DNA of 64,000 nucleotides from Bisporella sp. PMI_857 (lineage: Eukaryota > Ascomycota > Leotiomycetes > Helotiales > Helotiaceae): the NCBI GenBank assembly GCA_021307315.1, contig JAJSPD010000042.1, positions 124,001 through 188,000 of the forward strand. Direction: 5' to 3'. The notes under the pieces are model-generated. The model was not told the DNA's origin and did not search any database. It saw only the letters and a list, made by a program, of their open reading frames with translations. Shown one piece after another: positions 8,840 through 49,508 of this stretch. Positions within the stretch are counted from its first letter, which is position 1; the number at the start of each line of letters is the position of its first letter. Made by a program: the position numbers and the translations under genes.

Positions 8840-11800
8840 TTAGAACTCTAGGGTAGCTTTTCCAGAATTCCGATCCGCCTTCGCTTGATCAAACCAGTAA
8901 AGATTCAATCTTCCCCCACTACCACAGAACTCGCTCGAGTTTCCGGGACAAGTGAAACTACACAGAGAGTCACTCACGTTGGTTGAAGGTGTGGCACCAG
9001 TGTTTCCGGCAACGTTGAGGGTGTTACCGCACCAACATTCTCTCCCGCTAAAGAGTAGTCAATATCTGGCGTGAGATTGAGGATAAATTAGGGTGGGACG
9101 TACTATTCAACACCTGCATAGGCGTATTTCCAGCAAGTTTCTAGACATTTTTCGATCGTCATCGCTGCTCCATCGTTCAAGATCTGGCTAGGGAGTAGAC
9201 GACCAGAAGACGGCTCAGTAGCACAAGAGTAATATGTAAAGTTCACATTCCCGTTGCTGACTACTGGAGGACCGGTGTAGGCAGGGTTAGCGACGCTCGT
9301 GCTTGATGACGAGACAACCGTTGACGACGAGGATGATGAAATCGAAGCAGAGGATAAAGTGGTCGAAGAAAAAACCGAGGATGTAGAAGTGAGTGTTTCT
9401 GATGTAGACGAGGGGGAAGTTGAGGACGGTAGAGAGCCAGACGTTAATGTTGAGCTGGACGTCGGCGGGGTCGCAGCATAAAGCTGTAGTCTGACACCCG
9501 CACCACAGTATTGGAGCTTATTGCCAGGGCAGAGGAATTTGCAATCAGCCTGATTAGCAGCCAGTACACTTCCCTTGTTAAGAGTATTGCCACAGTAACC
9601 TAGAAGAAGATATCAGTGCTAGTAAAACATTTACCGAAGGATAAACCTACACTCCCGACCATACTCGACGCCGAACATGGCATACCCTTTGCAGAAAACA
9701 CCGCAAGAATCAAGCGTCATGTTATCATTTGCATAGGTCTTGGAAGAGAGGGCACGGCCAGTATCAGATTCGGTATAGCATCCAAGGAAGGTCCAGTAGT
9801 CGATCTGAGGGCTGACCGCAGGCCCGGATTGTGTTGGTGCAGCAGATGATGTGCTTGACGTACTGGTGAGACTAGTACTTGTGACTGATATGGTCGGTTG
9901 TACATCGGAGCTTGATGATGAGGGGCTGGTAGTCGTGCTCGAAACGGACGATTGCACAGCAGAGCTTGAAGATGACAAGCTTGTGCTCGAGGTTGGCAAA
10001 CTCGAGCTAGATAGTGACAACGACTGACTTGTAACACTCGTGAGGCTTGCACTAGATTGCGACGAGACAGAACTGGACGAAGAACTGGCTCCGAACTGAT
10101 ATACATTCAGTCTTGACCCTGCGCCACAATACTCGGTAGAATTGTCTGCCTGGTCAGCTTTGAATCAATTGAGCCGGGTGACTTATTTACCTGCACAAGG
10201 AGTCTTGCAGTCTGTGATAGTAGTAGGGACTGATCCCGCACCAAAGGCGTTTCCGCACCAACACTGGCAAATGTCAGTACGCTCGGGAACCAATACGGAT
10301 CCAACCTACCTCTTGACCATATTCGAGACCCGCATATTTGAAAGAGGATGCAGCGCAGGCAGTGACGCAGTTTGCGACAGTCTTGAGGGTCATGGTCTTC
10401 CCACTAGACAACGCTCTACCGGTGGTAGCTTCCGTGTAGCACCCGATACTCGTATATCCGTTGACACCAGGGTTCGCTACAGGTCCAGAGGGAGTTGTAG
10501 GAGAAGTCGTGTTACCATTAAACTGTTTTGAGTCGGCGAATAGCGAGATATATGATTTGCCTTGCCCATCACCAAATCCATTGCCGCCACAGATTTGATT
10601 GACGTCTCCCTTACAAGGGTAGTCGCAGTTTCGTTCGTCGACCTTCAGGTTTGGGATGGTTGGGCCACCCCAGCATTCGCGATTGTATTGTGTCCCGCAG
10701 AATACGTAATTGCCAGCAGCGCATGCGGCAATACACATATTGGTCGTGCTATTGTCGTTTCCATAGAGTTGCTGTTTGAGTTGGCGCCCCGGGTTGTTCT
10801 CCAGGAAACAGCCGACATACCTGTACTGGCCATTTCCATTTGGTAACAACGGCGGGGACTGCTCAGCGACTGCGTTACAGACAAATTGAAGCTTCTGGTG
10901 TCCAAAGGAGAGATCGTTAAAGTTTATCTCCCAGGTAGCACTTCCAGAATAGGAGTCAGTATTCCATTGGGTTTTAGGAACTGAACAATAGATCGATGCT
11001 GTTGCGTTTTGCCCTGGAGCTATCGTAGTGCCTTCAGCAAGATCTATCTGATTGTTAGCACTGATCAAGCCGCCAGAACCAAATGGCGCCTTGGATATGG
11101 TCAGCGACAGTGCGGCTGAATCGGTCGTTGCATTATTGGTGATGCGCATCTTGAGTGTTCGCGTCTGGTTTTCAGTGACATTTCCGAAAGTAAAGTTCTG
11201 TCCGCTGTATGTAACCCAGCCAAGCCCATCGGGAGTTTGGAACTCAACAACGGCTTTTGGTGCATCTCCAGCTGTCCCCACAACATCGAATATTTTATTG
11301 CCGCCATCAGATTTAACCGTGACGTAAGTAGCAAAATTGCCGCTATGGCTTGTGTCAAAGTTGATGGTGACAGGTGCAACCGAGTTAGGTGGAATCGTCG
11401 TCGGGAGATCGTAGAAGGTAAACGGGCCGACGGATGGACCTGCAGATGTGTCGTTGGGGCTGATGTACGGACCTGTCTCGCTAGTCTGTGAGTATAACAA
11501 AGTTGATATTGTCAAATCTGTATTTCCGTTGTTTAAGAAGAGCATTGTCTGATTCACGCCTCCTGGCTGTTGTCCAGTGATCAGACCTTGGAAGGCGACT
11601 GTGACGGGGCTCACAGCAAGCAGTGGAGCAACACTCTGACCAGTACCTCGCAAACTGATGGGAGTGGTCAGACTGTATCCACCAAGATTATTCGAGGTAG
11701 TAACGACAACATCAGAGGAGAGTACACCAATAGCGGTAGGGTTGAATACGGAGCTGAGACTGAAGATTCCTCCATTAGCTAAAGTAAAGGGAAGCGTAGG

Positions 11801-13685
11801 TAGATTGCTGATTGCGAAGTCGGGGTTGCCGGTCATGGCAATGCTAGAAACTGACTGAGCAATCAATGACTTGCAAGTGATGGTTTTTGGAGCAGATGTT
11901 TGAGTCAGATTGGCAGTGCCGAACTCATAAGGTGCCGAGCAATTAAGGGGTTGATTGACTGGTGCGCCGAAGCCATATAGATATCCTTGGTTTGTTGCAA
12001 TATAAGCCCGTCCATTGCCAAACACAGGTCGAGAGAATTTAGTAACACCAGGTATATTGAACTTGTTGATCAAAGTGAGGTAACCATTGGAAGGTACGGC
12101 GTTATAGATACGAAGATTATATCCATTGACATCTGTAAGCCAAAAGAGGCCAGTACCGGCGGCACCATCTAAGGATGTGGTTGTTCCATGGCTGACGCCA
12201 AGACCGCTGAAAGCATTGCTCTCTGGGGTGCGAGCCACGACAGTGAAAGTAGGGAAGTTATTGACGCAACTGAATTTGAAAATGCGACTTGGATAGTTGA
12301 TGACTTGAAGAAGTTAGTGTGGATGTTGAGGCTTAAGGTGTGAGTCTTACCATTGATGTAGATATATCCTCCTTCCCCAGGGTAAACGCCTGCGCCTGCA
12401 TAGACGGAGTTTTCATGTTGGTAGACATAAATGACATCGTCCAACTTATTGGGCCCATTTTGGTATCCTCCCAAATCATCCAAGTTCAGAAAGTATGTCT
12501 TCCCACTCTTACCCGTGAGCACGCCGATTCTTTTGTAGTCGCCACAAGCAAATTCACTGGGCAGAATCTCAAGCGGAGTGGTTCCTAAATCTCGATCTGC
12601 ACCATCCAGCTGAGTTTTCTCCCACGGCATGAAAAAGTCGGCTACCGTCAAAGTACCATCGGTATTAATGGACATGTGGACTGCAGCCTCTTCCAGCGAA
12701 GTGGGAGGGTTACGGCCATTGACAGGAATGGTTGACAACTGGGATGCATATCCGTTTCCAGTTGAGAAGAACATAGAGCCTGCATTATCAGAAGCGAGCC
12801 CACCACCGCTCATCCAGACTCCGGCTCCCTTTGTTTGCGAATCGACACCAAGTCCCTGAGTCGCAAACCTTTCCACGATAGCACCCGAGTCTTTGTCCCA
12901 TCCTATGATCCATCCCGTAAAGTTATCATGCACGCAATGGGACGCAAAGCCAGCATAGATGTATTGACCACTATGCAACAGGCCCGGGCGTTGATGATGG
13001 ATTCCACCGCCAAAGGTTCGCACCGGATTGTTACGCGCTACTGTTCCTTCTAGTGCAACAGGGAAATTTGGACGCTCGCTCAAGTCATTGAGACTGATGG
13101 CATGAATGTAGTAGCGACCATTCAGCAATCCTTGCGCACCATTTCCACCGGCTTGGTTTGCATACGTCTTGGAAGTAATATAGTACGTTTCCGTGTCCGG
13201 GTCGATGACGCCAGTAGCAGTGACACCCACCAAAGGGTTGATATCCACGCAGCCATCCAGATCGGCTACCAAAAATGGAATGTGCAAATTTCGTTTGGCG
13301 ATAATGGTTCCTGTCTTTGCGTCGAGTTTGTAGACATTGTTGTGTGTGGTCGCCAAGAAGATGTATTGTACCCCATCTGACAGGGTATATACCAGGGGCA
13401 TGGAGAAGATTTGCTCCTTGGCTCCATTGTAGACTCCTGGTAACGCGGCTCTAAAGATTTGGCCAAACTGAGCGCTGGCCACAATGGTTGGGTCCATATT
13501 ATGATTACTACCATCGAGGTTAGAAATCACGGTGTAGAAGGAAGGGAAAGAACTTGCTCTTGATAACCAGTCCTGGAGTTGTCCCCTCCCCAGGTGATGG
13601 TGTCAGTTTTAGCCAAAGAGGCGACATGACTAACAAGTAAAGACCAAAGAAAAAGAACGAGCGTGTTGGGTATTATTCCGCGCAT
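8840..13685 (-). CDS. Secreted PQQ-like beta-propeller protein with four WSC domains
   Basis: Exons (minus): 13685-13558, 13507-12351, 12303-10310, 10263-10191, 10145-9651, 9599-9104 and 9047-8840, giving 1516 residues. Residues 1-25 are a signal peptide (MRGIIPNTLVLFLWSLLVSH...). Residues ~30-480 begin TWGGDNSRTGYQ and form a quinoprotein-like propeller. Residues ~480-900 resemble Ig-like ASH/choice-of-anchor repeats. WSC domains (Cys-rich, CWCGN/CYCGN motifs) start near 919, 1048, 1230 and 1400; the last three are separated by Ser/Thr-rich linkers likely to be O-mannosylated. No transmembrane or GPI tail is seen, so secretion or wall association is likely. WSC domains are thought to bind glycans. 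The first intron (13557-13508) appears to be GC-AG; all others are GT-AG. The catalytic role is unknown. Confidence 0.9.
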
Positions 13686-22513: not shown

Positions 22514-22942
22514 CTGATGGCGCTCATATTATGCTTTGAATCGGATTTGAAACGCCAATATGATGACAACATGATTTTAGAATGCTCGCCTCGGCGAGGA
22601 ACATAGGTGCACCTTTGATGTGGTACGCGCAAAATTATCTCAAGACAAGCTACACTTGTCATTGCACTCAAAAGAACTACCATTTCTCCACGATTACCAT
22701 TTCCCTAGGAAAAGCGTACAATAAATTTTGCTTGCCAAGGGATGCAAATTCTGAGCTTCCATTCCTCGCCACATTCGGGATATTAAGCACATTCTTTATC
22801 AATTCCTCCAGCTCCATATCCCTTCCCTCTGTCTACTCCCATTAACAGAAGACCTTCTTTACACTCATCACTCTCTGTTTGCCTGACTACAGTTCGACAA
22901 AACTCACGTTCCTTACCTACAATTTCAGACACAGCCGTTACA
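22514..22942. other. Intergenic promoter region
   Basis: The 3' flank of the hydrolase and the CT-rich leader of the GPI-type WSC gene. No other feature seen. Confidence 0.5.
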
Positions 22943-24006
22943 ATGAAGTCTAAATTGTTATATATCGTCGCTCTCTTCACCGCCTCAGTTCTTGCAGTGG
23001 TACCCAATACAACTGACACAAAATGGCTGTACGCAGGATGCTACTTCGCACCAGCAGGACACATGCTGGACCACTTCACAGCGCAGAACCTTACTACCAC
23101 CAGCATCATGTCATGTTTCGAGGCTTGTGCAGATGTTAGATTTGCCGCGCTAGGAGCAGGACAGTGCTACTGCGCAAAGGAGATCATCGCGACCTTGAAG
23201 CCGAATGCGGATGATTCGAATTGTACAGTCCCTTGTGGTATCGACGGTGCGGACGCTGTACGTGTTTCTCTCCCACTATACAATAAAAACTGACATTTGC
23301 AGTGCGGCGGCCCTCTCTCCCTCGAAATGCGAGAGCCCGTCTCACTCTCCCTCTATGACTCTCTTCCTCCAGTTCCCATTTCCTACCCGGGCTGGAAATA
23401 CGACGGGTGCGTGCAACATAATTCGATGGTTAAGAACCTCACGCATCTGGCCACAATCGGTGAGCTAACCGTAAATCGATGTCTCGCTGTCTGCGACGTC
23501 TCTCCGGTGGAGTATGTTTTCGCGGGCGTAAGCGGAGATTCTTGTTTCTGCGGGGGCAAGAACTCTGTCACCAAGGCACCGCAATACGTAAAAGATGATT
23601 ACAACACCTGCAACTTCCCTTGCGCAGGTAACAAGGCCCAAGCTTGTGGAGGAACGTTCGCGGGATATGATGGGGCTGTGTATGTTCTTTCTCTCCCATT
23701 CCCTCTTTTATTCTCCAAGCCGCGAGAGCTGGAATATGCTGATGAGTGACCAGGAGTTTCTATGAGAGGGAAAGCGGTCCATCGGATGCATCTTCGATTG
23801 ATCCTAATCAGACCGGTCAGCTCATGACGAGGACGGTTCAGCATGCGGAGGCGACGAGTGTGACTACGGGGACGGATGGCAATCCTACGCCGGTTATCAC
23901 GAGTAGTTCGAAGGGGAGCCAGGAGACGAAGAAGAGCGATGCTGGAGCTGTGAGGATTGGAGGAGAGATACTAGCGGGTATGGTTGGGTTGTTGGCTGTT
24001 CTGTGA
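22943..24006 (+). CDS. WSC-domain cell-surface protein with predicted GPI anchor
   Basis: Exons 22943-23257, 23303-23679 and 23754-24006 give 314 residues. Residues 1-19 form a signal peptide (MKSKLLYIVALFTASVLA). Two WSC modules follow: residues ~28-115 (WLYAGCYFAP ... GQCYCAKE ... CTVPCGIDGADACGG) and ~135-225 (YDGCVQHNSM ... DSCFCGGKN ... CNFPCAGNKAQACGG). A Ser/Thr-rich stretch leads to a small-residue site (KKSDAGAVRIGG) and a short hydrophobic C-terminus (ILAGMVGLLAVL) with no cytosolic tail, as in GPI-anchored wall proteins rather than Wsc-type stress sensors. Introns are 45 and 74 bp. Function is probably cell-wall glycan binding. The partner WSC protein lies 9 kb to the left. Confidence 0.88.
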
Positions 24007-38941: not shown

Positions 38942-39751
38942 CTATGTTCGCCCTGTGGAGGAAGTGATTCCACCATCTACCACAATCTTCTGTCCAGTAA
39001 TGTATCTAGCCTCATCTGAAACCAGAAACAAAGCCGCATTGGCAACATCCCATGCATCTCCCATTCGGCCCATTGGGACCTGACCATCTCTCATTCGTTT
39101 GAACTCCCCATAGCCTCCCTCGGTAGGAAAACGAGTGGCAAGACTTCGGGTATATGGCGTTTCCATAAGACCTGGTACCACTGTGTTTAGTCTCACGCCT
39201 CTCTGAGCATAGATAACTGCCGTTGCTTTGACGAACTGCATGATTGCGGCCTTAGTCGTGTTATATGCAATTTGTGGTTTTCCAATATAGCGCATCCCTG
39301 CGATGCTCGAGACGCACACGATTGCACCACCATCAGGCTGTTTCTCCATAACTGGGAGAACATGATGACATGACAAATACACGCTCTTGAGGTTAATATC
39401 CATCTGAGCATCCCATATCTCCTCTGACATGGTGGCTGGACATCCTGGCTGCGACTGTCCGACATTTGCTATTAAAATGTCTATGCGGTTGTGCTTAGCC
39501 ACGCAAGCTTCGATCAACTCCTGTACCGACGCAGATGATGTAGCATCAACAGCCATAATGTCACACTGTCCTCCTTCATTCTCGATGGTTTCCTTTGTCT
39601 TGGTGGTTGATGTAATCGTCCTATTCCCGCCGAAGATGATAGCGCCTCGTCGAGCAAGCACGACAGCACAGGCGGCGCCAATACCCCATCCCACAGACCC
39701 AGTTTGGCCCAGGCCAATGACCACAGCTACCTTTCCCTTGAGGTCATGCAT
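38942..39751 (-). CDS. Short-chain dehydrogenase/reductase (candidate sugar dehydrogenase)
   Basis: A single exon of 269 residues. It has a Rossmann N-terminus KVAVVIGLGQTGSVGWGIG (a glycine loop one residue longer than the classical TGxxxGIG), a NVG motif (ILIANVGQSQPG), catalytic Ser in CVSSIAGMRYIG and YxxxK in YNTTKAA, and the usual C-terminal ITGQKIVVDGG. The ATG at 39751 (MHDLKGKVAVV) was chosen because upstream codons lack an ATG. It is cytosolic and NAD(P)-dependent. It is transcribed divergently from the IlvD/Edd dehydratase 337 bp away and lies in a block with a lactonase and a transporter, so oxidation of a free sugar to its lactone is a reasonable hypothesis; a keto-acid reductase step is the alternative. 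Confidence 0.93.
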   Translation of the reverse strand: MHDLKGKVAVVIGLGQTGSVGWGIGAACAVVLARRGAIIFGGNRTITSTTKTKETIENEGGQCDIMAVDATSSASVQELIEACVAKHNRIDILIANVGQSQPGCPATMSEEIWDAQMDINLKSVYLSCHHVLPVMEKQPDGGAIVCVSSIAGMRYIGKPQIAYNTTKAAIMQFVKATAVIYAQRGVRLNTVVPGLMETPYTRSLATRFPTEGGYGEFKRMRDGQVPMGRMGDAWDVANAALFLVSDEARYITGQKIVVDGGITSSTGRT

Positions 39752-40088
39752 TGCGGATACAGAAATGTTAAAAGTCGTTGTATATAGGGATACAGTTGTC
39801 AGCACCTAAGTAGGAATTCAAATAATGTCACAGACGAGAGTGGAGCACGCTTAGTCAAAGTTCTCGAGTACATAATTCCATTCAAAAGGCGCATTTATCC
39901 TCGATTGATAGTTGCCGTTCCTGTCTATTAGGTCTGGCGAGCCAGTTAGCCTATCGGAATAACCCCGTAGTGACTTACCTTTGGCGGACTTTCCCCGTCA
40001 ACATATATTGTGGGGAAACTCTGCGTATGTCATCATTCAATAAATTCGTTGTCGGATAATCAGATCAAGTCGGTAGTAGTCCATCCCA
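39752..40088. promoter_or_regulatory. Divergent promoter SDR / IlvD-Edd with paired CGG-N7-CCG sites
   Basis: The 337-bp shared promoter contains two CGG-N7-CCG inverted pairs at 39955-39967 and 39985-39997, spaced exactly 30 bp start to start (about three helical turns). A TATATA element near 39780 faces the SDR. CGG/CCG pairs are the usual targets of Zn2Cys6 dimers such as the one encoded at 42.2-44.5 kb. Confidence 0.5.
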
Positions 40089-41979
40089 ATGGAACACAAA
40101 GAAAAGAAGCAATTGGGTGAAACAGACATGTCGGCTTCAGATTATGACATCTCGACGCCGATACAATCCACACATGGGCTGCGTCAAGGCCTCACGTCCT
40201 ACGGCGATGCCCATTTCTCTCTATTCCTACGCAAAGTCTTCATCAAGGCTCTGGGTTACAGTGACGATGCGCTATCTCGGCCAATCATTGGTGTCATTAA
40301 TACGTATTCGAGCTTCAACCCATGTCATGCCAACATTCCACAGCTTATTGAAGCTGTGAAGCGTGGTGTTCAACTTAATGGCGGTCTTGCCATAGACTTC
40401 CCAACGATTAGTATTCATGAGTCATTTTCATCGCCGACGAGTATGTTTCTACGAAACCTTATGAGTATGGATACAGAGGAGATGATTAAGGCTCAGCCCT
40501 GTGATTCTGTTATTCTCATTGGTGGTAGGTCGACCCAGTATTAAAAGTCGAACTGAGTCTTTAACAAACCTAGGCTGTGACAAAACCACCCCTGCCCAGC
40601 TGATGGGGGCCATCTCAGCAAACAAACCTGTAGTGCATCTTGTCACAGGTCCCATGATGCCGGGTAGCCATAGGGGAGTCCGCATTGGCGCCTGTACTGA
40701 CTGCAGAAACAACTGGGCATCTTACAGAGCCGGAACGCTTGACATTGAAGACATTTCAGCCATCAACGATGAGCTCGCCCCCACGTCAGGAACATGCGGT
40801 GTCATGGGGACCGCGAGTACAATGGCGTGTATACTCGTCGCGCTTGGCCTCATGCCCTTCGCTGGAGCGTCAGCACCAGCTGTGTCGTCCGCGCGGTTGC
40901 GTATAGCCGAGGAAACTGGTCGCATTGCTGTCAATCATGCAACAAACAAAGTTCTCCAGCCTCAGACACTATTAACGCGTTCATCGTTTTTGAATGCAAT
41001 AACGGTTCTTCAAGCCATCGGTGGTTCAACGAATGCCGTGGTGCACCTTATGGCCATCATTGGAAGGCATCCAAATGTTGCTGGCACTATCGACCTAAAC
41101 ACATTTGATGAAATTGGACGCAAGACACCACTGTTGGTTGATTTAAAACCCAGTGGCGATAATTACATGACCGATTTCCACAATTCGGGTGGCATGCTTT
41201 CACTTCTCTACGAGCTCAAGCCGTTGCTTCATCTTGATGCAACAACCTTCACGGGGAGAACCTTAGGCGAAGAACTAGCCATTGCTACACCCATGCGTGT
41301 ACCGCGCAGTCTCAGCTGCATTCAGCCATTTGACGACCCGCTCTACCCGGCATCATCGCTGGTGGTACTGTGGGGTAATCTTGCACCCCGTGGAGCAGTC
41401 ATCAAGGCAAGCGCCTCTAAAGATCGGCGCTTGTTGCACCACTCCGGAAAGGCCGTTGTGTTCAAGAACTCTGAGGATCTGGCCCGAAGACTGGACGATC
41501 CTGAGCTCCCCGTGACTGCCGAGAGCGTTCTTATTTTGCAAAGCATTGGGCCAAAGGGAAACCCCGGCATGCCAGAAGCTGGATTGATACCTATCCCGAA
41601 GAAGCTCGCAGCTCAGGGGGTTATGGACATGTTGAGACTTTCAGATGGAAGGATGAGCGGAACTGCTGGTGGCACCATCGTTCTCCACATCTCGCCGGAG
41701 TCTGTCGATCCATCATCGGTTCTGGGAATCGTGCGAGATGGAGACCTGATTGTATGCGACGCGGAGCGCCGCCTGTTAGACGTGGATATCTCCAAAGAAG
41801 AGATCGCTGCACGTCAACAGCAAAGACTGGCTTCCGCTGACTCCCCAGTCTCGGTGGAAGCCAGAGTTACTGTCAAGACAGAGAGGGGTTACCGTGGTCT
41901 TTACAAGCGATCAGTATTACAGGCAGATAAGGGAGCGGACTTTGACTTCTTAACTGCTCAGGGACTCCTGAACGAATAG
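40089..41979 (+). CDS. IlvD/Edd-family dehydratase (candidate sugar-acid dehydratase)
   Basis: Exons 40089-40524 and 40574-41979 give 613 residues; the 49-bp intron ends CAAACCTAG. The three family Fe-S ligands are visible: C79 (NPCHANIPQ), C147 (GGCDKTTPAQ) and C220 (SGTCGVMGTA), together with the conserved IGGSTNAVVHL and SDGRMSGTAGG segments. The family includes dihydroxyacid dehydratase (Ilv3), phosphogluconate dehydratase, and pentonate/hexonate dehydratases that make 2-keto-3-deoxy sugar acids. There is no evident mitochondrial presequence, unlike housekeeping Ilv3, and the neighbours are catabolic, so a sugar-acid dehydratase is more likely than branched-chain amino-acid synthesis. Substrate is unknown. 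Confidence 0.93.
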
Positions 41980-42182
41980 TACCTTCAGTTAAGAACACCG
42001 TGCATCGTGATCAGCGGAAACTATCCTGAATACATGGACCAAAACCTGGCTAAGGAGACAAGACATGTACACTAGGTTGGTAGCTATTCGAATGGCTATA
42101 TGAACGTTAGGTATCAAGCGGAAATCGGTTACAAATATATTTGCATAATTTTGCTATTAGGCGTATCTTTCATTGATTGATG

Positions 42183-44548
42183 CTACAAGAAGTTCTGACT
42201 TAATGATGAAAAGTCCTCGAAAATGTAGTCCATCCAACCCTGAGCATCTAAAGGCTCGCCGAGTAGGTTCTGCGCCAAAAATTGGTCCAGTTGGTCCTGC
42301 ATTCCAGTCACTTGCGCCGTCTGTGCTTCTGGGTTTGAATAGTTAGGGCTCCGCATTTCCACACAAGGCTCATTGAAGCTCTCCGTAGCGCTACTTCGTG
42401 TAATGAAGGTGGCATCGCGCCGTGCAGCTTGCAATGTCCCGTTAGTATTTTGCCCTTGCTGACTGAGTTCCCTGTCTTTCACCCAACGAATCGTAAACCC
42501 TGCCAGCTTGTCAACAAGGTCTCTGCACCGCCTAGCCCGTGACCAATGCTCTCCAATGGCACTGAGCAGGCTTAAGCAGATCGAAATGTCAGTCATCAGC
42601 ACATCCAGTCCAGCTTGCGTCGCAATGCTTGGGTTCATCCTGATGCAATATATCATTGAAATAGCACTGATGGTTATTGAGTGCAGGGCCGTCCAGCTAG
42701 CCGCAAGCATATCTCGTTTGTATAAACGATCATACAGGCGAATAGCCTGTATAGCGCTATCGTAACATTTCGTCAATGCGTCGGCAGACGGGTTTGGTAT
42801 TGCTGGACTAGGGCTCATGAGGAGCATGCGTATGTTATGGTATCGCACCTGACAGAGAAGCCGCGGGTATGCTTTATCTGGTTCAGCAAGGGGTATGTCA
42901 TCTGCCCATGCATCCAGGCGTTGTAAAACTTGTTCTTGCCATGCGTTGATATTAGGTATAGTAGGTAGCGCATAGGCCGGAGCGTCCCTGACAATGCTAT
43001 TGGCTACATACTTGATTTCAGAATTGATTTTGGCAAGTGCAAATAGATGTGTGGCAAAACGCATATGCGATGGACTGGAATGCGCCTGTTCAGGATTTGG
43101 CATAGCGAGCGCATCATCTGATATGTCCTTTGGAAACTATAATTAGTTAGTCACAATCTCGAGCATCTCTGTCTTTCACATACCCGTAATTCGCAAGCCT
43201 CATCCCTCAAACCAATAGGCCTTCCCATTATTGTCGCAATGGTCCTATCTAGTGTATACACACACCAAAATAGCCTAGTTCTCATCTCTTGCTCGAATAA
43301 CGATATACCAGATAAAACATTAATATTTCTCTGTAATCCCAGGTCTAAAAGAGCCGCTATGCAATGATAATTCAGGTACCAGATATTCAGCCTTGCCGAT
43401 GGGTTATGGATCGCATAAATCGATAAAAGCAATAGACACTGTAAGCCCTGTAGTGAATTTTCCACGTTGATGCGATCAAAATATTGCATTGCTGCGATAC
43501 CATAAGAGTCGCCCAGTACCCCAGGCCGCGGACGGCGAGAGCATACAGAAGCACCAATAGCGAGTACCATAAAAACCTGGAAAGCGGCGACACAGTCCGG
43601 TTCCGTTGGTTCATACATCTGGTCAAGCATGCTCATAAATGTTGGTTCGTGTAAGATCGGATACTGGGGATGGATGAAGTCAAAATAACTCGAATACAGA
43701 TATCTGGCACCTTCTTTCGTTGAGGGTATGGGAAGCGGGCCTTGTATCGATTCGATAAGCTCACAAGGAAACGGTACATTAGCAGTACCTTCGCCATTGA
43801 AGTCTCTAAGCGCAGGCCCACCACCTGCCCTATCTGAGGACTGTAGCAAAACGCGTGCGAGGAAGTAGCCACTTGAAGGGCCAATATACCTTGGATCTTG
43901 ACCACCGCCAAGTGCGATCAGGCCAATTTGATGAGCGGAAGTACGCGATGTTTCAAGTTCTCTATCATTTTCAGATGGTTTGAGGATACCGCTGAGGGGT
44001 TCCCTTGGCTGGCTGGATGATGTAACTGCTGTGGCATTATGGTCTGCAGTATCTACATCACGCGGGGCCTGTTGGGCAACCCGATTATCTATTGGATCAA
44101 CATAAGATAGCTCGTTCGGAGCTGCCTCTGACCCAGATGCTGTGCTTGATGCGCCCAGAGATAGATCCACATCCGGGCATCTAGCCCGAATAATAGACTC
44201 TAGCCAGGCAGTGCGGTTCTTCAAAGCGGTTATATGTCTTCTTTCTTGTCAGTCATTCCTGAAGCATTATAGGCTATGTCTTACGCTCTGGGCAGTTCTC
44301 GTGTGCGAAGACTCGCACCATCTGTGCAAGCAACGCCCACATTCCTGCAATTGCTGCACGCTGGAATACCGCCATCGCACTAGGCAACTTTCAGTACAAG
44401 CCAATCTAGCTGTCTTTTGAGGGGCTTATACCCTTATCTTCCTCTTCTGGCAGCGGTGGCAGGCCAGACGCAGACGGGGACGATTCCGCCCTTCCCGTAT
44501 TTCTAAATCCGACTGTTGCTGTACCTGTTCGCCCACTAAATCCGCCAT
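42183..44548 (-). CDS. Zn2Cys6 transcription factor with fungal-specific regulatory domain
   Basis: Exons (minus) 44548-44432, 44379-44285, 44237-43184 and 43136-42183 give 739 residues from the ATG at 44548 (MADLVGEQ); an in-frame ATG at 44749 would add 67 poorly conserved residues and swallow a promoter site. The zinc cluster is ACHRCQKRKIRCDGG ... ACSNCRNVGVAC (CX2CX6C...CX2CX6C), interrupted by a 52-bp intron as is common. A linker and a middle homology region follow (fungal_trans; YLYSSYFDFIHPQYPILHEP, ...GLRDEACELR). It is probably the pathway-specific regulator of the surrounding catabolic block. All introns are 47-52 bp. Confidence 0.92.
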
Positions 44549-44813
44549 TTCCTGGTTATGTTGCGGGGAAGTCCTTATGAATAGCAATCCGAAGAATATA
44601 ACGGAGATGCCGTGCCAAGGCTTTTCCTCCACGGTGCCGGACCGAAACCGGCTCACGTGATTGCCGTGTATATAACTTGGGCGGGCGGGCGGGGGGAGTC
44701 CCGTCATTGTGCCAGCTGCGGAGTACTCCGAGTCATTGGGCGTAGCCATATAAAGATTGCATATTAACTAACAGCTCTTGCGTTTCCGCGACAAGACAAC
44801 CCGCTTGAACAAA
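44549..44813. promoter_or_regulatory. Divergent promoter regulator / Ldh2 with CGG palindromes
   Basis: The shared 265-bp promoter holds a perfect 12-bp palindrome CGGAGTACTCCG (CGG-N6-CCG) at 44719-44730, a CGG-N5-CCG at 44602-44612, a CACGTG at about 44654 and TATATAA near 44668. These fit autoregulation plus control of the Ldh2 gene by the cluster regulator. Confidence 0.5.
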
Positions 44814-45877
44814 ATGGCCGAAGAACGCGAAGGACAGGTTTATGTTGATGCAGCAGAGGCGAAACGCTTTGTGGAAGCCGTTCTACAGGGTAATGGTGTA
44901 CCCAAGGGTAACGCTTCCATAGTAGCCAAGTGCCTAGTCGCTGCTGATCTCCGCGGCGTTGATACACATGGCGTTAATCGGATTCCATCCTATATGGAGC
45001 GGATTCGACAAGGGGTTCTTGATGCAAAAGCTGAGCCCGAAGTACGACAAGTCACACCAGTAGTAGCTCACGTCGACGGGCACAATGGTTTCGGTTTCCT
45101 CGGAGCGCACGCGGGTATGGCTGCTGCTATAGAATCGGCTCGTACCTACGGCATTGGCATGGCCAGCGTTGCGCACTCAAATCACTTTGGAATGAGCGCC
45201 TGGGTGGTACAGCAGGCCCTTGATGCTGACATGATGAGTCTAGTCTTCACAAACTCCAGCCCTGCGCTTCCAGTCTGGGGCGGCAAAAGCAAGCTCATGG
45301 GCGTTTCTCCCATCGCTTGTGGCGCTCCGGGCAAAGACATGCCCTTCATTTTGGATATGGCCCCATCGATTGCTGCTCGAGGCAAAATATATAAAGCCAA
45401 GAGGCGAGGCGAGAAGATCCCTATGGATTGGGCTCTGGACTCGGAAGGCCAACCAACGGATGACCCCGAAGCAGCTCTTGGGGTGTCATGCTTCCTATGG
45501 GAGGTCCGAAAGGATCAGCATTGGCTGTTATGATGGATGTATTCTCAGGTGTGCTATCAGGATCAGCCTTCGCAGGGCATGTCACCAACCCATATGATCC
45601 ATCTAAGCCAGCAAATGTTGGCCATTTCCTCGTTGCTATCAAACCTGACCTCTTCCTCGACTTAAATGAGTTCCGGGAAAGGATGTCATATCTCTACCAG
45701 AGGGTTGTAGGGTCTGATAAGGCTGCTGGGGTGGAAAGAATTTACTTCCCTGGAGAACTCGAGCAAATTGCTCAAACTGAGAGAGAAAAGACGGGAATAC
45801 CATATGTAAAGGCGGAGGTTGATGCTCTGAACAAGGAAGCCCGTAAGGTCTCAGTTATGGCTCTAGTTACAAAGTAA
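44814..45877 (+). CDS. Ldh2/malate dehydrogenase-family oxidoreductase, with an apparent 1-base frameshift
   Basis: The frame from 44814 (MAEEREGQVYVDAAEAKRF) carries the family marks RGVDTHGVNRIP (catalytic His52), NGFGFLGAHAGM, VAHSNHFGMSAWV, MGVSPIACGAPG and the FILDMAPSIAARGKIYKAK segment, then loses homology after DPEAALG near 45480. Homology continues without a gap in another frame with GVMLPMGGPKGSALAVMMDV to ALVTK and a TAA at 45875-45877. The shift falls in a run of four G (45480-45483) where five would keep frame, and no intron fits. So it is a real frameshift or a homopolymer base-calling error. This NAD(P)-dependent family (YiaK, ureidoglycolate and sulfolactate dehydrogenases) acts on 2-hydroxy/2-keto acids, fitting a late redox step in sugar-acid breakdown. 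Confidence 0.88.
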
Positions 45878-46342
45878 TCCAGCGAACTGCAAAATCATTA
45901 GGTGGGTTTGTAAAAATAGAAAAAAAAAAAGTCAGTTCTTCGATTTTGCGCAGTCCTCAACGTTTGTGATATTATTGGTTTGGGTCCCCATGAATCTATC
46001 CCTCGCTATATCCTGGACACTCTGTCCATCGCTTCGAGGAATAGAGCAAGGAACGCAGTTGCTCATACTTCAAACATTCATTTAAAACCCCCCCATTTAA
46101 CAGTCGAATCCCGAGTAGTTCCTCATAAGTACATTGAGATTACAATATGGGACAATTAAGCTTTATTCACCCTTAGATTCCATTCTAACGTAAGGATAAG
46201 GCTCGGACCACATCAATAGCCGGTGACAAAAGGATACGGGGGTCATTGTTAAATTTAAATCAGAGCTGAAGGTTATTCCGGCTCAAATCCATGTATCGGC
46301 GTCATATAGTCCCCAACTCCATGGTAATCAATCTCCTAAAAG
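45878..46342. other. Convergent intergenic region
   Basis: The 3' flanks of the Ldh2 and MFS genes, with a poly-A run near 45918. No gene seen. Confidence 0.5.
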
Positions 46343-47958
46343 TCAGATCTCGTACCTGTAGTCGTGTGCCATGTCCGCATCACCTCCCATATCAATGGGA
46401 ACGCCCGCCTCAGGTTTCCCATATCTCCTATCCCTAGATGTATTTTCTTTGTATAACAGGATGCTCATGATGAGAGCCGCTAGTGCTGTTGTGAACGCCA
46501 AGCTACCCGAGACTATGTTACCCATCAAATAATACGGCGCATCCTTGCTAGGATATATATTGGACGCAGCTATGCCGACAGCGTGAGTCACAGCAATGAC
46601 CACACCAATGCCGACACCTGCCTTGGTGTCGCCAGCGAAGGTAGATGCAATCCAAGCAAGAACAATAGGAAACGCCATGTATGTGCCCTTGAGGTTAGTA
46701 TCAGCAGATAGCTCCCTAAAGGTTTAAGACAAAACTTACCGTAACAGCAAGCACACAAGCGCCGTACCTCATCTTCTCATCTTTGAGAGTTCCTAGCAAA
46801 ATGTATCCTATGCCGGATAATAATCCCCCAATCATGATTGGAATGCCTCTCACATGGAAGTGATCAGAGACCCAGGCTGTAACTAGCAGAGTTGCATACG
46901 CTGTACCATACACAGGTGCTGTCATCAAATTTGCAGTGACAGATTCATAACCTAGCGTCTGAACGATAGAAGGCAAGAAAACAGCTGCAACTGCAAGGGA
47001 CAATGACAAGCCTGAGTAAATGAGAACAAATAGATACAAGCGATAATCGAGGAATGCTCTGTTTTGTGTTAGCTATGATTCCCAAACACAAACAGAACCA
47101 GAACTCACCCTTTGACTTGAGCCAGGCTAACTCCGCTGTCTTCATTTTTGGTAAACCTATTGCGACGGCTCAAGATTATCACATATTCTTCGTCAGTGAA
47201 CCAGTGTGACCTTTCTGATTCGGGACGCCCGGGTAGCATCCATAGAGTCAACACTCCGACCACAACTGTTGGCAAACCCTCGACTATGAACAAGGTTTGC
47301 CAAGAAGTTGGCCTTTTCAAGTGAGCCAAACCCACTCCGTATGCTATAAGTCCCGAAAGGACGCCACTCAAGGCGCTCATGCCAGCATATGCGGCAATAC
47401 GCAAGGAGAGTTCCGACTTCAGGTACCAGAAGCTGAGGTACAGCGCACAACCAGGTGCAAAGGAGGCTTCAAAGACACCAAGGAAGAAGCGTACTGCTAT
47501 CAGGCCCCTAGGATTGGTACATACGGCTTGCAAACAGCTAACAGCCCCCCAGCCAATTGCACATACGCCGAGCCATATAGATGGTTTCACAACTTTAAGC
47601 ATCAGTCCGCCAATGGTGCCGAAAACGGTTGTTCCAATGTAGAAGGAGGCTGACGCAAGTTGATACTTTGGAGCACTGAGTCCTATATCCTTAGCAAGAC
47701 CGATATTGCGAGCGTTTCCCATATTACTCCTATTACAAAATCATCAGTCAAGTCGTGGTTCCTTTACATAATTGAATGTCGTAAGTACCTATCAAGATAG
47801 GAGAGGAAATAGAGAAGCATGATCCAAACTAAGATCGTTCGGTCAAGTTTTCTAACAAGGTGGCGTTCTTTTGAAGCATGGTGGGCAGATGATACGGTAG
47901 CTTCCATAGCTTTCGCACTTTCGACATGGCTACACGCCACCTTCATTGAAGGATCCAT
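46343..47958 (-). CDS. MFS transporter, Dal5/Tna1-like anion:cation symporter group
   Basis: Exons (minus) 47958-47789, 47729-47109, 47058-46740 and 46687-46343 give 484 residues with 12 predicted membrane helices. TM1 ends in LSYLDRSNMGNARN, the hallmark of this fungal symporter subfamily; GVFEASFAPGCALYLSFWY and ARFFLG-like segments follow, with a central cytosolic loop containing FTDEEYVIILSRRNRF. Introns are 59, 50 and 52 bp; the third has a textbook ACTAAC branch site. Members import small organic anions (allantoate, nicotinate, sugar acids). Next to a lactonase and a dehydratase, import of a sugar acid or lactone is plausible. It is transcribed divergently from the SMP-30 gene; a TATATATA lies near 48061. 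Confidence 0.92.
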
Positions 47959-48596
47959 ACGGCCTTTCCCTTCGTTTTGTATTATTTTCTTCAATGTCTA
48001 TCCTGGAAAATAGAAATAACAGACAGAAGTTGGGTCGAGTTGTATTGACAGAAATTTGGCCGTATATATAGGTGTAGAAGAAAGCAAATGCCAAGCCTGG
48101 GATGGTCTTCTCCAAGTTGGGGTCCCCGCACTCCCCAACTCACCCTCATAAGCCAAAGGCCTGCTCGGCTTGTACCGAATTGATAGCGGGCTTTCGCCGT
48201 GTCTCAGTATGTAGCATAGCTGCGGAAGGTACTAGCATGAGAGCATGATACCCACGGAATAGTCCGCTCACCCGATGGTCACGGGTATTTGCTCAACCTC
48301 AACACAACTCTGCGTAGTTATTATCGGCTTCACAACGTTTCCGCTGACGGGCGTAGCTCAAAATATGGCTTTAGGTAACGGAATCCGTCCATAGGTGCAA
48401 TAGTGTTTCCAATGGCAGCATCTACTGCAAGGCACTTGTGGGTGGCGATGACGGGATTGGTCTGTAACTAAGTCAAATGTGTTTCGTCCATTACTGAAAC
48501 AGTTATCCCCATGCTTAAGTTTTATCGAAAGAAAGATTCGCTTGAATTAGTCGATGCTCTTTAAACGCCGTCTGCGCATGTTTCCTGATTGACACA
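47959..48596. promoter_or_regulatory. Divergent promoter MFS / SMP-30 with three CGG/CCG inverted pairs
   Basis: The 638-bp shared promoter contains CGG-N6-CCG at 48166-48177, CGG-N7-CCG at 48187-48199 and CGG-N6-CCG (CGGAATAGTCCG) at 48255-48266, plus a CGG-N3-CCG at 48379-48387. The first two are 21 bp apart. These resemble the pairs in the other two divergent promoters of the cluster. Confidence 0.5.
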
Positions 48597-49508
48597 ATGC
48601 TTTCTACGCTGTGGAACGAGCCCGCTCAAATCGAAGCCCAATTGTTTACAGCCTTGCCTAAGCCCTTCCGGCAACTTGGTCAATCCGAACATTCCCGAAA
48701 TCAAAAACGCGGGCGACCGCTGGACTCATTTCTTGAGGGCCCGCTGGTTCGGAACGGGATCCTGTACCTGACAGATATCCCGTATGGTCGAATATTTGCT
48801 GTTGATTTAGTCAGTAAGAACTGGAAGCTGGTGATCCAATACGACGGTGAGCCTAATGGCTTAGCTTGGCACGAACAGCGCCAGAAGATACTAATTGCCG
48901 ACTTCAAGTGTGGCATCCTGGAACTTGATCCAGAAACTCAGCAGCTGACGACCGTGATGGATCGCTTCAATGGCGAAAGACTGAAAGGGCCAAATGACCT
49001 AGTTGTCACCCGTGACATGAGTATCATATTCACAGATCAGGGGATGAGTGGGCTCCAAGATCCGTGCGGGCGGGTTTATCGAATATGTGCGGATGGCAAA
49101 GTCGACATACTTCTACGAAACTGCCCCTCGCCGAATGGTTTAGTCCTTGACGCTGCTCAGGCCAATCTTTTTGTTGCCATGACGAGGGACAACAGTATTT
49201 GGCTTGCTCCGCTATATCCCGATGGAAGTGTTCAACGTACAGGCCGCTTTTCAAGTTACTTCGGCGTGGGCGGTCCTGACGGCATGGCGATGGATACCGA
49301 AGGCAACGTATTTGTAGCACATTCGACACTAGGCACCGTCTTTGTACACCGAAAAGATGGAAGCATCATGGCACGGATCGCCACGAGACATGTTGGGTCA
49401 GGAACAACTAATCTGAATTGGGGCGGAGATAGGGGGAAGACGTTGTATATCGTTGAAAGCGAGAGTGGCTCTATTATGACAGTTGAATGGCATTGTCAGG
49501 GAATATGA
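48597..49508 (+). CDS. SMP-30/gluconolactonase-family lactonase
   Basis: A single exon of 303 residues, normal length for the six-bladed SMP-30/gluconolactonase/LRE propeller. Metal-ligand positions appear conserved: Glu in FLEGPLVRNG, Asn in LKGPNDLVVTRD, PNGLVLD, and Asp in GGPDGMAMD. The family hydrolyses sugar lactones to sugar acids using a divalent metal. There is no signal peptide, so it is cytosolic. In context it would open the lactone made by the SDR (or imported) and feed the IlvD/Edd dehydratase. Alternatives in the family (diisopropylfluorophosphatase-like or drug-responsive lactonases) are less likely here. Confidence 0.92.
   Translation: MLSTLWNEPAQIEAQLFTALPKPFRQLGQSEHSRNQKRGRPLDSFLEGPLVRNGILYLTDIPYGRIFAVDLVSKNWKLVIQYDGEPNGLAWHEQRQKILIADFKCGILELDPETQQLTTVMDRFNGERLKGPNDLVVTRDMSIIFTDQGMSGLQDPCGRVYRICADGKVDILLRNCPSPNGLVLDAAQANLFVAMTRDNSIWLAPLYPDGSVQRTGRFSSYFGVGGPDGMAMDTEGNVFVAHSTLGTVFVHRKDGSIMARIATRHVGSGTTNLNWGGDRGKTLYIVESESGSIMTVEWHCQGI

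Follow-up and report, generated by a model that had tools for sequence, protein, structure and literature searches.

The genome of Bisporella sp. PMI_857 (Leotiomycetes, Helotiales; 55.6 Mb) was found to carry six adjacent genes that, as read from sequence, form a genuine catabolic cluster: two of the genes make up a conserved core, the dehydratase is of the sugar-acid type and one gene is broken; the activity of the cluster is predicted. The stretch analysed, hereafter the window, is a 64,000-nucleotide part of contig C222, and the six genes occupy about 10.6 kb of it (38942-49508). They encode, in this order, an SDR oxidoreductase (minus strand), an IlvD/Edd dehydratase (plus), a Zn2Cys6 regulator (minus), an Ldh2-type dehydrogenase (plus), an MFS transporter (minus) and an SMP-30 lactonase (plus). 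An earlier sequence-only reading had placed these six families at these positions, and all were verified by Pfam matches for SDR, IlvD/Edd, Zn2Cys6, Ldh_2, MFS and SMP-30.

Family and motifs of the dehydratase

By family scores, nearest structures and active-site motifs, the window dehydratase is not the housekeeping Ilv3 but a predicted sugar-acid-type enzyme. The gene model, identical over 600 amino acids (aa) to a listed protein of Bisporella sp. PMI_857 (P0001), exceeded the cut-off of only one NCBIfam model, NF004784 (712 bits, cut-off 539), and stayed under the cut-offs of the Ilv3 model ilvD (TIGR00110; 392 bits, cut-off 618) and of L-arabinonate dehydratase (NF009559; 566 bits, cut-off 882). 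A copy on contig C156 scored 726 bits on ilvD, over the cut-off of 618, and is by this score the predicted housekeeping Ilv3 of the genome. Of two further copies, pieces were scored, and both pieces stayed under the cut-offs: a piece on C252 scored best on Ilv3-type families (487 of 644 and 455 of 618 bits) and a piece on C244 on NF004784 (329 of 539 bits). The C252 sequence (128.6-130.0 kb) was noted as a second Ilv3-like dihydroxy-acid dehydratase (DHAD) beside the C156 copy. The solved structures nearest to the window protein are 8ej0 and the L-arabinonate dehydratase 5j83, and the motif at the catalytic Ser is SGTA in the window and C244 copies, SGGS in the C156 copy and SGAS in the C252 copy. 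The sequence-only reading had counted a grouping of the dehydratase with Ilv3 among the findings that would speak against its proposal, and these results place it outside that group.

The 613-aa model contains C79, C147, C220, D148 and K149, which correspond to the CDK motif and the three cluster cysteines. All five residues recur in 118-120 of the 120 homologues listed, the counts for the three cysteines being 120, 118 and 120. According to the accessible part of PMC5770437, the pentonate-type subgroup of IlvD/Edd proteins has the CDK motif together with three [2Fe-2S] cysteines, the Cys60-type one being limited to a subfamily, and the Thr two places past the catalytic Ser (Thr482/Thr492) is present in both pentonate dehydratases compared and substituted in other members. 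Every listed homologue that bears an organism name is from a fungus, and the source databases mostly label these proteins dihydroxy-acid dehydratase, dehydratase or hypothetical protein.

Linkage of the SDR and dehydratase genes

Across fungi, the conserved part of the cluster is the SDR-IlvD pair. For dehydratase, SDR and lactonase, 120 listed sequences each were compared by contig and by locus tag. SDR and IlvD were located on the same contig in the window and in 15 other cases, with the same species name in both lists, against a chance expectation of 0.009 (2000 trials, lengths jittered by at most 10%). Several of the shared contigs are megabases long, so sharing alone is no proof of adjacency; consecutive SDR and IlvD locus tags were observed in all six genomes in which both genes carry tags, namely Conoideocrella (QQS21_001662/3), Neopestalotiopsis (G7054_g13724/5), Stylonectria (G7046_g8387/8), Fusarium falciforme (NCS54_00616700/800), Cosmosporella (Fc.00g107500/490) and Kalmusia (N0V90_001173/2), with tag steps of 100 (NCS54) and 10 (Fc.00g) taken as neighbouring genes. 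Conserved co-location, which the sequence-only reading had named as one of its tests, was thus found for the SDR-IlvD pair; synteny of all six genes was not shown, and the lactonase kept company with the SDR in 3 of 119 cases, as detailed below. We infer that the lactonase and Ldh2 are later, optional additions.

SDR, dehydratase and MFS genes recur together within the Bisporella genome itself. At C244:181.9-190.6 kb, a dehydratase lies with the second-best genomic match to the SDR and an MFS gene. The dehydratase pieces are 67% and 78% identical to the window dehydratase, and the SDR is 58-60% identical over its larger piece and 42-46% over its smaller one. The MFS protein is nearest to the TIGR00893-type D-galactonate transporter family, below the cut-off as is its window counterpart. 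Neither lactonase nor Ldh2 was found by tblastn within C244 173-193 kb. Near this second cluster, a GDSL-lipase-like open reading frame (ORF; L012:789-1229) and an SHMT-family ORF (L014:2869-3927) were observed. The third-best SDR relative, 45% identical, is at C112:598849-599532 and has six internal stop codons, which represent either introns or a pseudogene.

Relatives of the dehydratase are also carried on bacterial plasmids, the best 25 of 861 plasmid records showing 51-59% identity (top, 58.8%). Thirteen of these 25 loci were examined, 11 of them annotated. Among the annotated loci, tricarboxylate, TRAP or sugar-ABC transporter genes were present in seven (L107, L108, L109, L118, L119, L121 and L122), a dihydrodipicolinate-synthase-family gene in three (L106, L107 and L109), an Ldh gene in one (L109) and an SDR gene directly downstream of the dehydratase in one (L122). 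Locus L109, from a Loktanella plasmid, is a rich sugar-acid locus in which IlvD stands beside Ldh, DapA-family, altronate dehydratase, lactate racemase-domain and larB genes.

Proposed route and alternatives

With modest confidence, we favour the reading that the cluster would serve the catabolism of an aldose, or of its aldonic acid or lactone, by a non-phosphorylative route to a 2-keto-3-deoxy acid. The six genes hold the dehydrogenase, lactonase and dehydratase families of non-phosphorylative oxidation, without an exit enzyme. The SDR would oxidise the free sugar at C1 to the lactone, the SMP-30 protein would open the lactone to the aldonate, and the IlvD/Edd protein, which has the motifs for a [2Fe-2S] cluster and for a Mg site with a carbamylated lysine, would convert the aldonate into the 2-keto-3-deoxy acid. 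Uptake of the sugar acid or lactone may be carried out by the MFS protein, and the Zn2Cys6 protein may turn the cluster on. An aldolase or hydrolase from outside the cluster would then act on the 2-keto-3-deoxy acid, and the genome has several genes of the DapA family (PF00701) and of the FAH family (PF01557), with 9 and 24 matches, respectively, in exon-by-exon counts. The sequence-only reading saw no aldolase in the cluster, and the scan agrees: all nine genomic PF00701 matches fall outside the window, and no aldolase was recognised among 20 other window ORFs scanned, many of which matched no family. These 20 come from a list of 63 stop-to-stop ORFs (120 aa or longer), 10 of which are pieces of the six genes. 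The MR_MLE matches of the genome are all on contigs other than that of the window.

The nearest solved structure to the SDR is 5jc8 (212 bits; the next, 124 bits), and Ser149, Tyr163 and Lys167 are invariant among the 120 listed homologues; 5jc8 bears a generic name, and the family of the SDR does not indicate the position oxidised. The lactonase is 49-51% identical to named proteobacterial relatives. In the regulator, the spliced zinc-cluster piece matched PF00172 (44.6 bits), and a PF04082 match reached 97.5 bits; in the transporter, PF07690 scored 77 bits on the largest exon piece (47108-47740). Prediction of the substrate from recognition-helix residues was dropped, as the published numbering could not be matched with certainty.

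The Ldh2 gene is broken. Positions 1-214 of PF02615 were matched in one frame (44814-45530, 290.8 bits) and positions 216-332 in another (45464-45874, 122.9 bits), the two frames overlapping at about 45464-45533, which marks the region of the break. An intron joining the halves was considered and rejected: a consensus GTRNG donor is missing from all 238 frame-keeping splice combinations across the break, and even the smallest GT-AG interval listed (104 bp) would remove conserved core coding sequence. Since the remainder of the frame is clean, with the C-terminal part open to its natural end, the break would be either recent, making the gene a pseudogene, or an assembly indel. The Ldh2-type dehydrogenase of the sequence-only reading is accordingly right as to family (PF02615), the broken frame having been missed. 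Because the frame is broken, Ldh2 probably makes no contribution in this copy, which is the sole substantial Ldh_2 gene found in the genome. Among the Ldh2 equivalogs (sulfolactate, ureidoglycolate and 2,3-diketogulonate), the best score was 201 bits of 500, obtained with the N-terminal piece. A sulfoquinovose (sulfo-ED) route, prompted by L-sulfolactate dehydrogenase as the top score, was set aside on this value and the broken gene. A relic-like Ldh2 fragment of 64 profile positions was observed at C280:144408-144596, and nearby ORFs resemble, by eye, parts of a fungal transcription factor.

The order of the steps could differ from that proposed. The SDR might act after the dehydratase, so that an imported aldonate is dehydrated by IlvD, its product is oxidised at the C4 hydroxyl by the SDR and cleaved by an FAH hydrolase encoded elsewhere (the bacterial route III), with the lactonase serving external lactones. 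Such a dehydrogenase-hydrolase exit of bacteria is named in the accessible part of PMC12370193. The window and C244 transporters being nearest to an acid-anion (D-galactonate) family, albeit below its cut-off, is consistent with this order, as are the 24 PF01557 matches in the genome and the 14 of the 15 other SDR-IlvD contigs that carry none of the 120 listed lactonases. No FAH gene is among the six genes, though, and neither the SDR family nor the generically named 5jc8 gives any hint of the position; we consider this order, the main rival, rather unlikely. It is less probable still that the strain has only a decaying relic of the cluster, with Ldh2 as a pseudogene and a route that no longer runs. 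The frame break without a consensus intron and the Ldh2 fragment at C280 would fit such decay, but complete open models with the expected motifs were obtained for SDR, dehydratase and lactonase, the regulator and MFS pieces are open, and the Ldh2 C-terminal part is open to its natural end, so that the break arose recently or reflects faulty assembly.

Neighbourhood by chance, with six unrelated genes, would leave room for the lack of demonstrated six-gene synteny and for the large size of the MFS and SDR families. Against it stand the 15 other fungi with SDR and IlvD on one contig, far above the expected number, the consecutive tags in every tagged genome and the second occurrence of the pair with an MFS gene at C244; chance is already contradicted for the SDR-IlvD pair; it may still apply to Ldh2 and the regulator, and for the cluster as a whole it appears highly improbable. 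DHAD copies are known in biosynthetic clusters, aspterric acid being an inhibitor of DHAD, and the window IlvD could by analogy confer self-resistance, or take part in biosynthesis, within a cluster for a secondary metabolite. This we regard as scarcely credible, as the dehydratase belongs to the sugar-acid group and not to the Ilv3 group, and synthase, P450 and terpene cyclase are absent from the 20 other window ORFs scanned.

Several results weigh against the favoured route of C1 oxidation, lactone opening and dehydration. In pentonate dehydratases a C-terminal His (His579/His591) sits in the active site of the partner subunit (accessible part of PMC5770437). This residue is absent from the window protein, which ends in LLNE, and only 2 of the 120 homologues have a His in the final three residues. 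The substrate is thus probably not a pentonate handled as in pentonate dehydratases, and for this reason the sugar-acid type is claimed with no pentonate substrate assigned. The lactonase points both ways. For the route, 3 of 119 other listed lactonases are on the same contig as an SDR, where chance would give 0.17 on average and about 1% of trials gave two or more. In Thozetella, SDR, dehydratase and lactonase are all on one 3.1-Mb contig, and the other two cases are short contigs from metagenomes, known only by their lengths of 6065 and 3645 bases. Against it, Dactylonectria macrodidyma and Ilyonectria destructans have the listed lactonase on another contig than SDR and IlvD, and in D. estremocensis the listed lactonase and IlvD are on different contigs. 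The regulator-like ORFs lying between the genes of the C244 cluster gave no Pfam match. The best acid-transporter family for the window MFS protein is TIGR00893 (D-galactonate), with 126 bits against a cut-off of 395 on the largest exon piece only; the anion symporter of the sequence-only reading therefore stands as an MFS protein (PF07690), with acid transport as a prediction.

The bacterial loci add further points of the same kind. Two of them, L120 and L123, contain no sugar-related gene besides the dehydratase; tblastn in the 13 loci detected weak SDR matches (27-28%) in two, weak MFS matches in two, Ldh2 (30%) in one and the lactonase in none. No dehydratase was present in any of 80 stretches, some only a few kb long, fetched round the best 80 of at least 575 confirmed bacterial lactonase relatives. 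A near bacterial relative of the SDR at 52% (H53, Sphingobium herbicidovorans; ranked below H51) lies outside any sugar operon. A CGG-N7-CCG pair was found in all three divergent regions of the cluster; this sharing is not significant, as 44 of 500 shuffles also had some spacing class in common, and a common Zn2Cys6 site was rejected on this count.

Positions of the cluster genes and of the main gene models are collected in the table. The flanks are unrelated to the cluster, with a neurochondrin-like gene at 34.3-35.7 kb and a DUF155/RMND1-like gene at 50.9-51.7 kb. WSC domains were observed in two other ORFs of the window (10277-12313 and 22787-23290).

Table. Features of the six-gene cluster in the window
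Feature	Position	Strand	Basis and remarks
SDR oxidoreductase	38942..39751	-	269 aa, intronless; PF13561 191 bits
Divergent promoter region, SDR/dehydratase, 337 bp	39752..40088	.	gene models
IlvD/Edd sugar-acid-type dehydratase (predicted), 613 aa	40089..41979	+	PF00920 326 bits, PF24877 180 bits
Dehydratase exons; single intron 40525-40573	40089-40524 + 40574-41979	+	gene model
Zn2Cys6 regulator, with introns, start codon uncertain	42183..44767	-	PF00172, PF04082
Ldh2-type dehydrogenase gene, broken frame	44814..45877	+	PF02615 in two frames
MFS transporter, start and exon joins inferred	46343..47958	-	PF07690
SMP-30/gluconolactonase-family (SGL) lactonase, 303 aa, intronless	48597..49508	+	PF08450 113 bits

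Assembly, descent and known systems

A bacterial ancestor operon holding both lactonase and dehydratase was looked for and not found: the dehydratase was missing from all 80 lactonase loci and the lactonase from all 13 dehydratase loci. Nothing in this sample points to wholesale takeover from bacteria, and the fungal cluster appears to be a composite of separate pieces. The stretches around the best 80 lactonase relatives, which are 43-51% identical to the window lactonase, gave weak MFS matches in 14, weak SDR matches in six and Ldh2 in two.

In a quick tree of the dehydratase, with 47 of the 119 other listed sequences and rooted on the C244 copy, the window protein clustered, at 98% SH-aLRT, with those of Conoideocrella (Hypocreales), Pestalotiopsis fici and Neopestalotiopsis; it pairs most closely with Conoideocrella (87%). 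The enclosing clade has ten rows (96%), and of its other rows one has no name and the rest belong to Xylariales in the wide sense. In the tree of the SDR (41 other SDRs), the window protein belonged to a clade of 16 rows (95%) that come largely from these groups too, with less resolution. No other Leotiomycetes were recognised by name among the named rows of the three lists of 120. These trees suggest that the SDR-IlvD pair probably reached Bisporella by transfer from a Xylariales-like fungus. Retention in Bisporella with loss elsewhere may instead apply, because the trees hold close homologues only, with no recognised Leotiomycete besides Bisporella.

The dehydratases LrdA and GaaB/LGD1 belong to the enolase (MR_MLE) superfamily, unlike the IlvD/Edd protein of the window. 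As the sequence-only reading had it, an IlvD/Edd-based route would be unusual beside the characterised fungal rhamnose and galacturonate routes. Sugar acid dehydratases of Aspergillus niger are reportedly the subject of work by Motter in 2014. In terms of gene presence the same statement does not hold, as IlvD/Edd paralogues are common in filamentous fungi and their group 2 clade is already published (accessible part of PMC3445565). In this source (Oliver et al. 2012), the "group 2" paralogues of filamentous-fungal ILV3 cluster with alpha/beta-proteobacterial sequences. Group 2 members such as Aspergillus fumigatus Ilv3C and Ilv3D resemble the window protein in alpha/beta-proteobacterial affinity and in standing apart from Ilv3, a likeness that does not come from a joint tree; the accessible part of PMC3445565 describes them without function or gene neighbourhood. 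The window protein is like group 2 in having plasmid-borne bacterial relatives of up to 58.8% identity and a separate housekeeping copy. With the pentonate dehydratases RlArDHT (5j83/5j84) and CcXyDHT (5oyn), it has in common the three cluster cysteines, the CDK motif, the catalytic Ser and the SGTA threonine, but differs from them in falling under the L-arabinonate cut-off (566 of 882 bits) and in the missing C-terminal active-site His.

The fungal L-rhamnose and D-galacturonate routes and the L-fucose route of Trichoderma reesei follow the same non-phosphorylative logic via a dehydratase to a 2-keto-3-deoxy acid (accessible parts of PMC9781776 and PMC12370193), and the rhamnose route also includes a dehydrogenase and a lactonase, as in the window cluster. 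For L-fucose use in T. reesei, LGD1 is the likely dehydratase (PMC12370193, in part). The chemistry proposed here is the same as in the fungal non-phosphorylated De Ley-Doudoroff and gluconate routes (PMC9781776) and in D-galactonate breakdown by Aspergillus terreus (PMC11219438), neither of which is linked to an SDR-IlvD cluster in the accessible text. Non-phosphorylative D-galactonate breakdown in A. terreus was described as enzyme activities in 1991 (cited in the accessible part of PMC11219438), and for the fungal non-phosphorylative D-galactonate and gluconate routes the aldolase step is given as elusive and the aldolase genes as unassigned (PMC9781776, in part). No description of an SDR-IlvD cluster was found in the literature searched, subscription journals being mostly outside the search, nor in the accessible parts of PMC9781776, PMC11219438, PMC12370193 and PMC13158570.

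We propose, tentatively and with considerable doubt, that Pezizomycotina carry a mobile, undescribed oxidative module for sugar acids, composed of an SDR and a proteobacterial-type IlvD/Edd dehydratase, to which a lactonase of bacterial type, acquired on its own, and further genes were added. The module would have moved from one fungal class to another and would provide the genes missing for aldonate routes known from activities. The conserved SDR-IlvD pair is a concrete candidate gene pair for fungal aldonate routes, and it would suggest a function for the group 2 ILV3 paralogues of fungi. If the proposal is true, the module would fill the gene gap in those fungal non-phosphorylative aldonate routes that are known as enzyme activities only.

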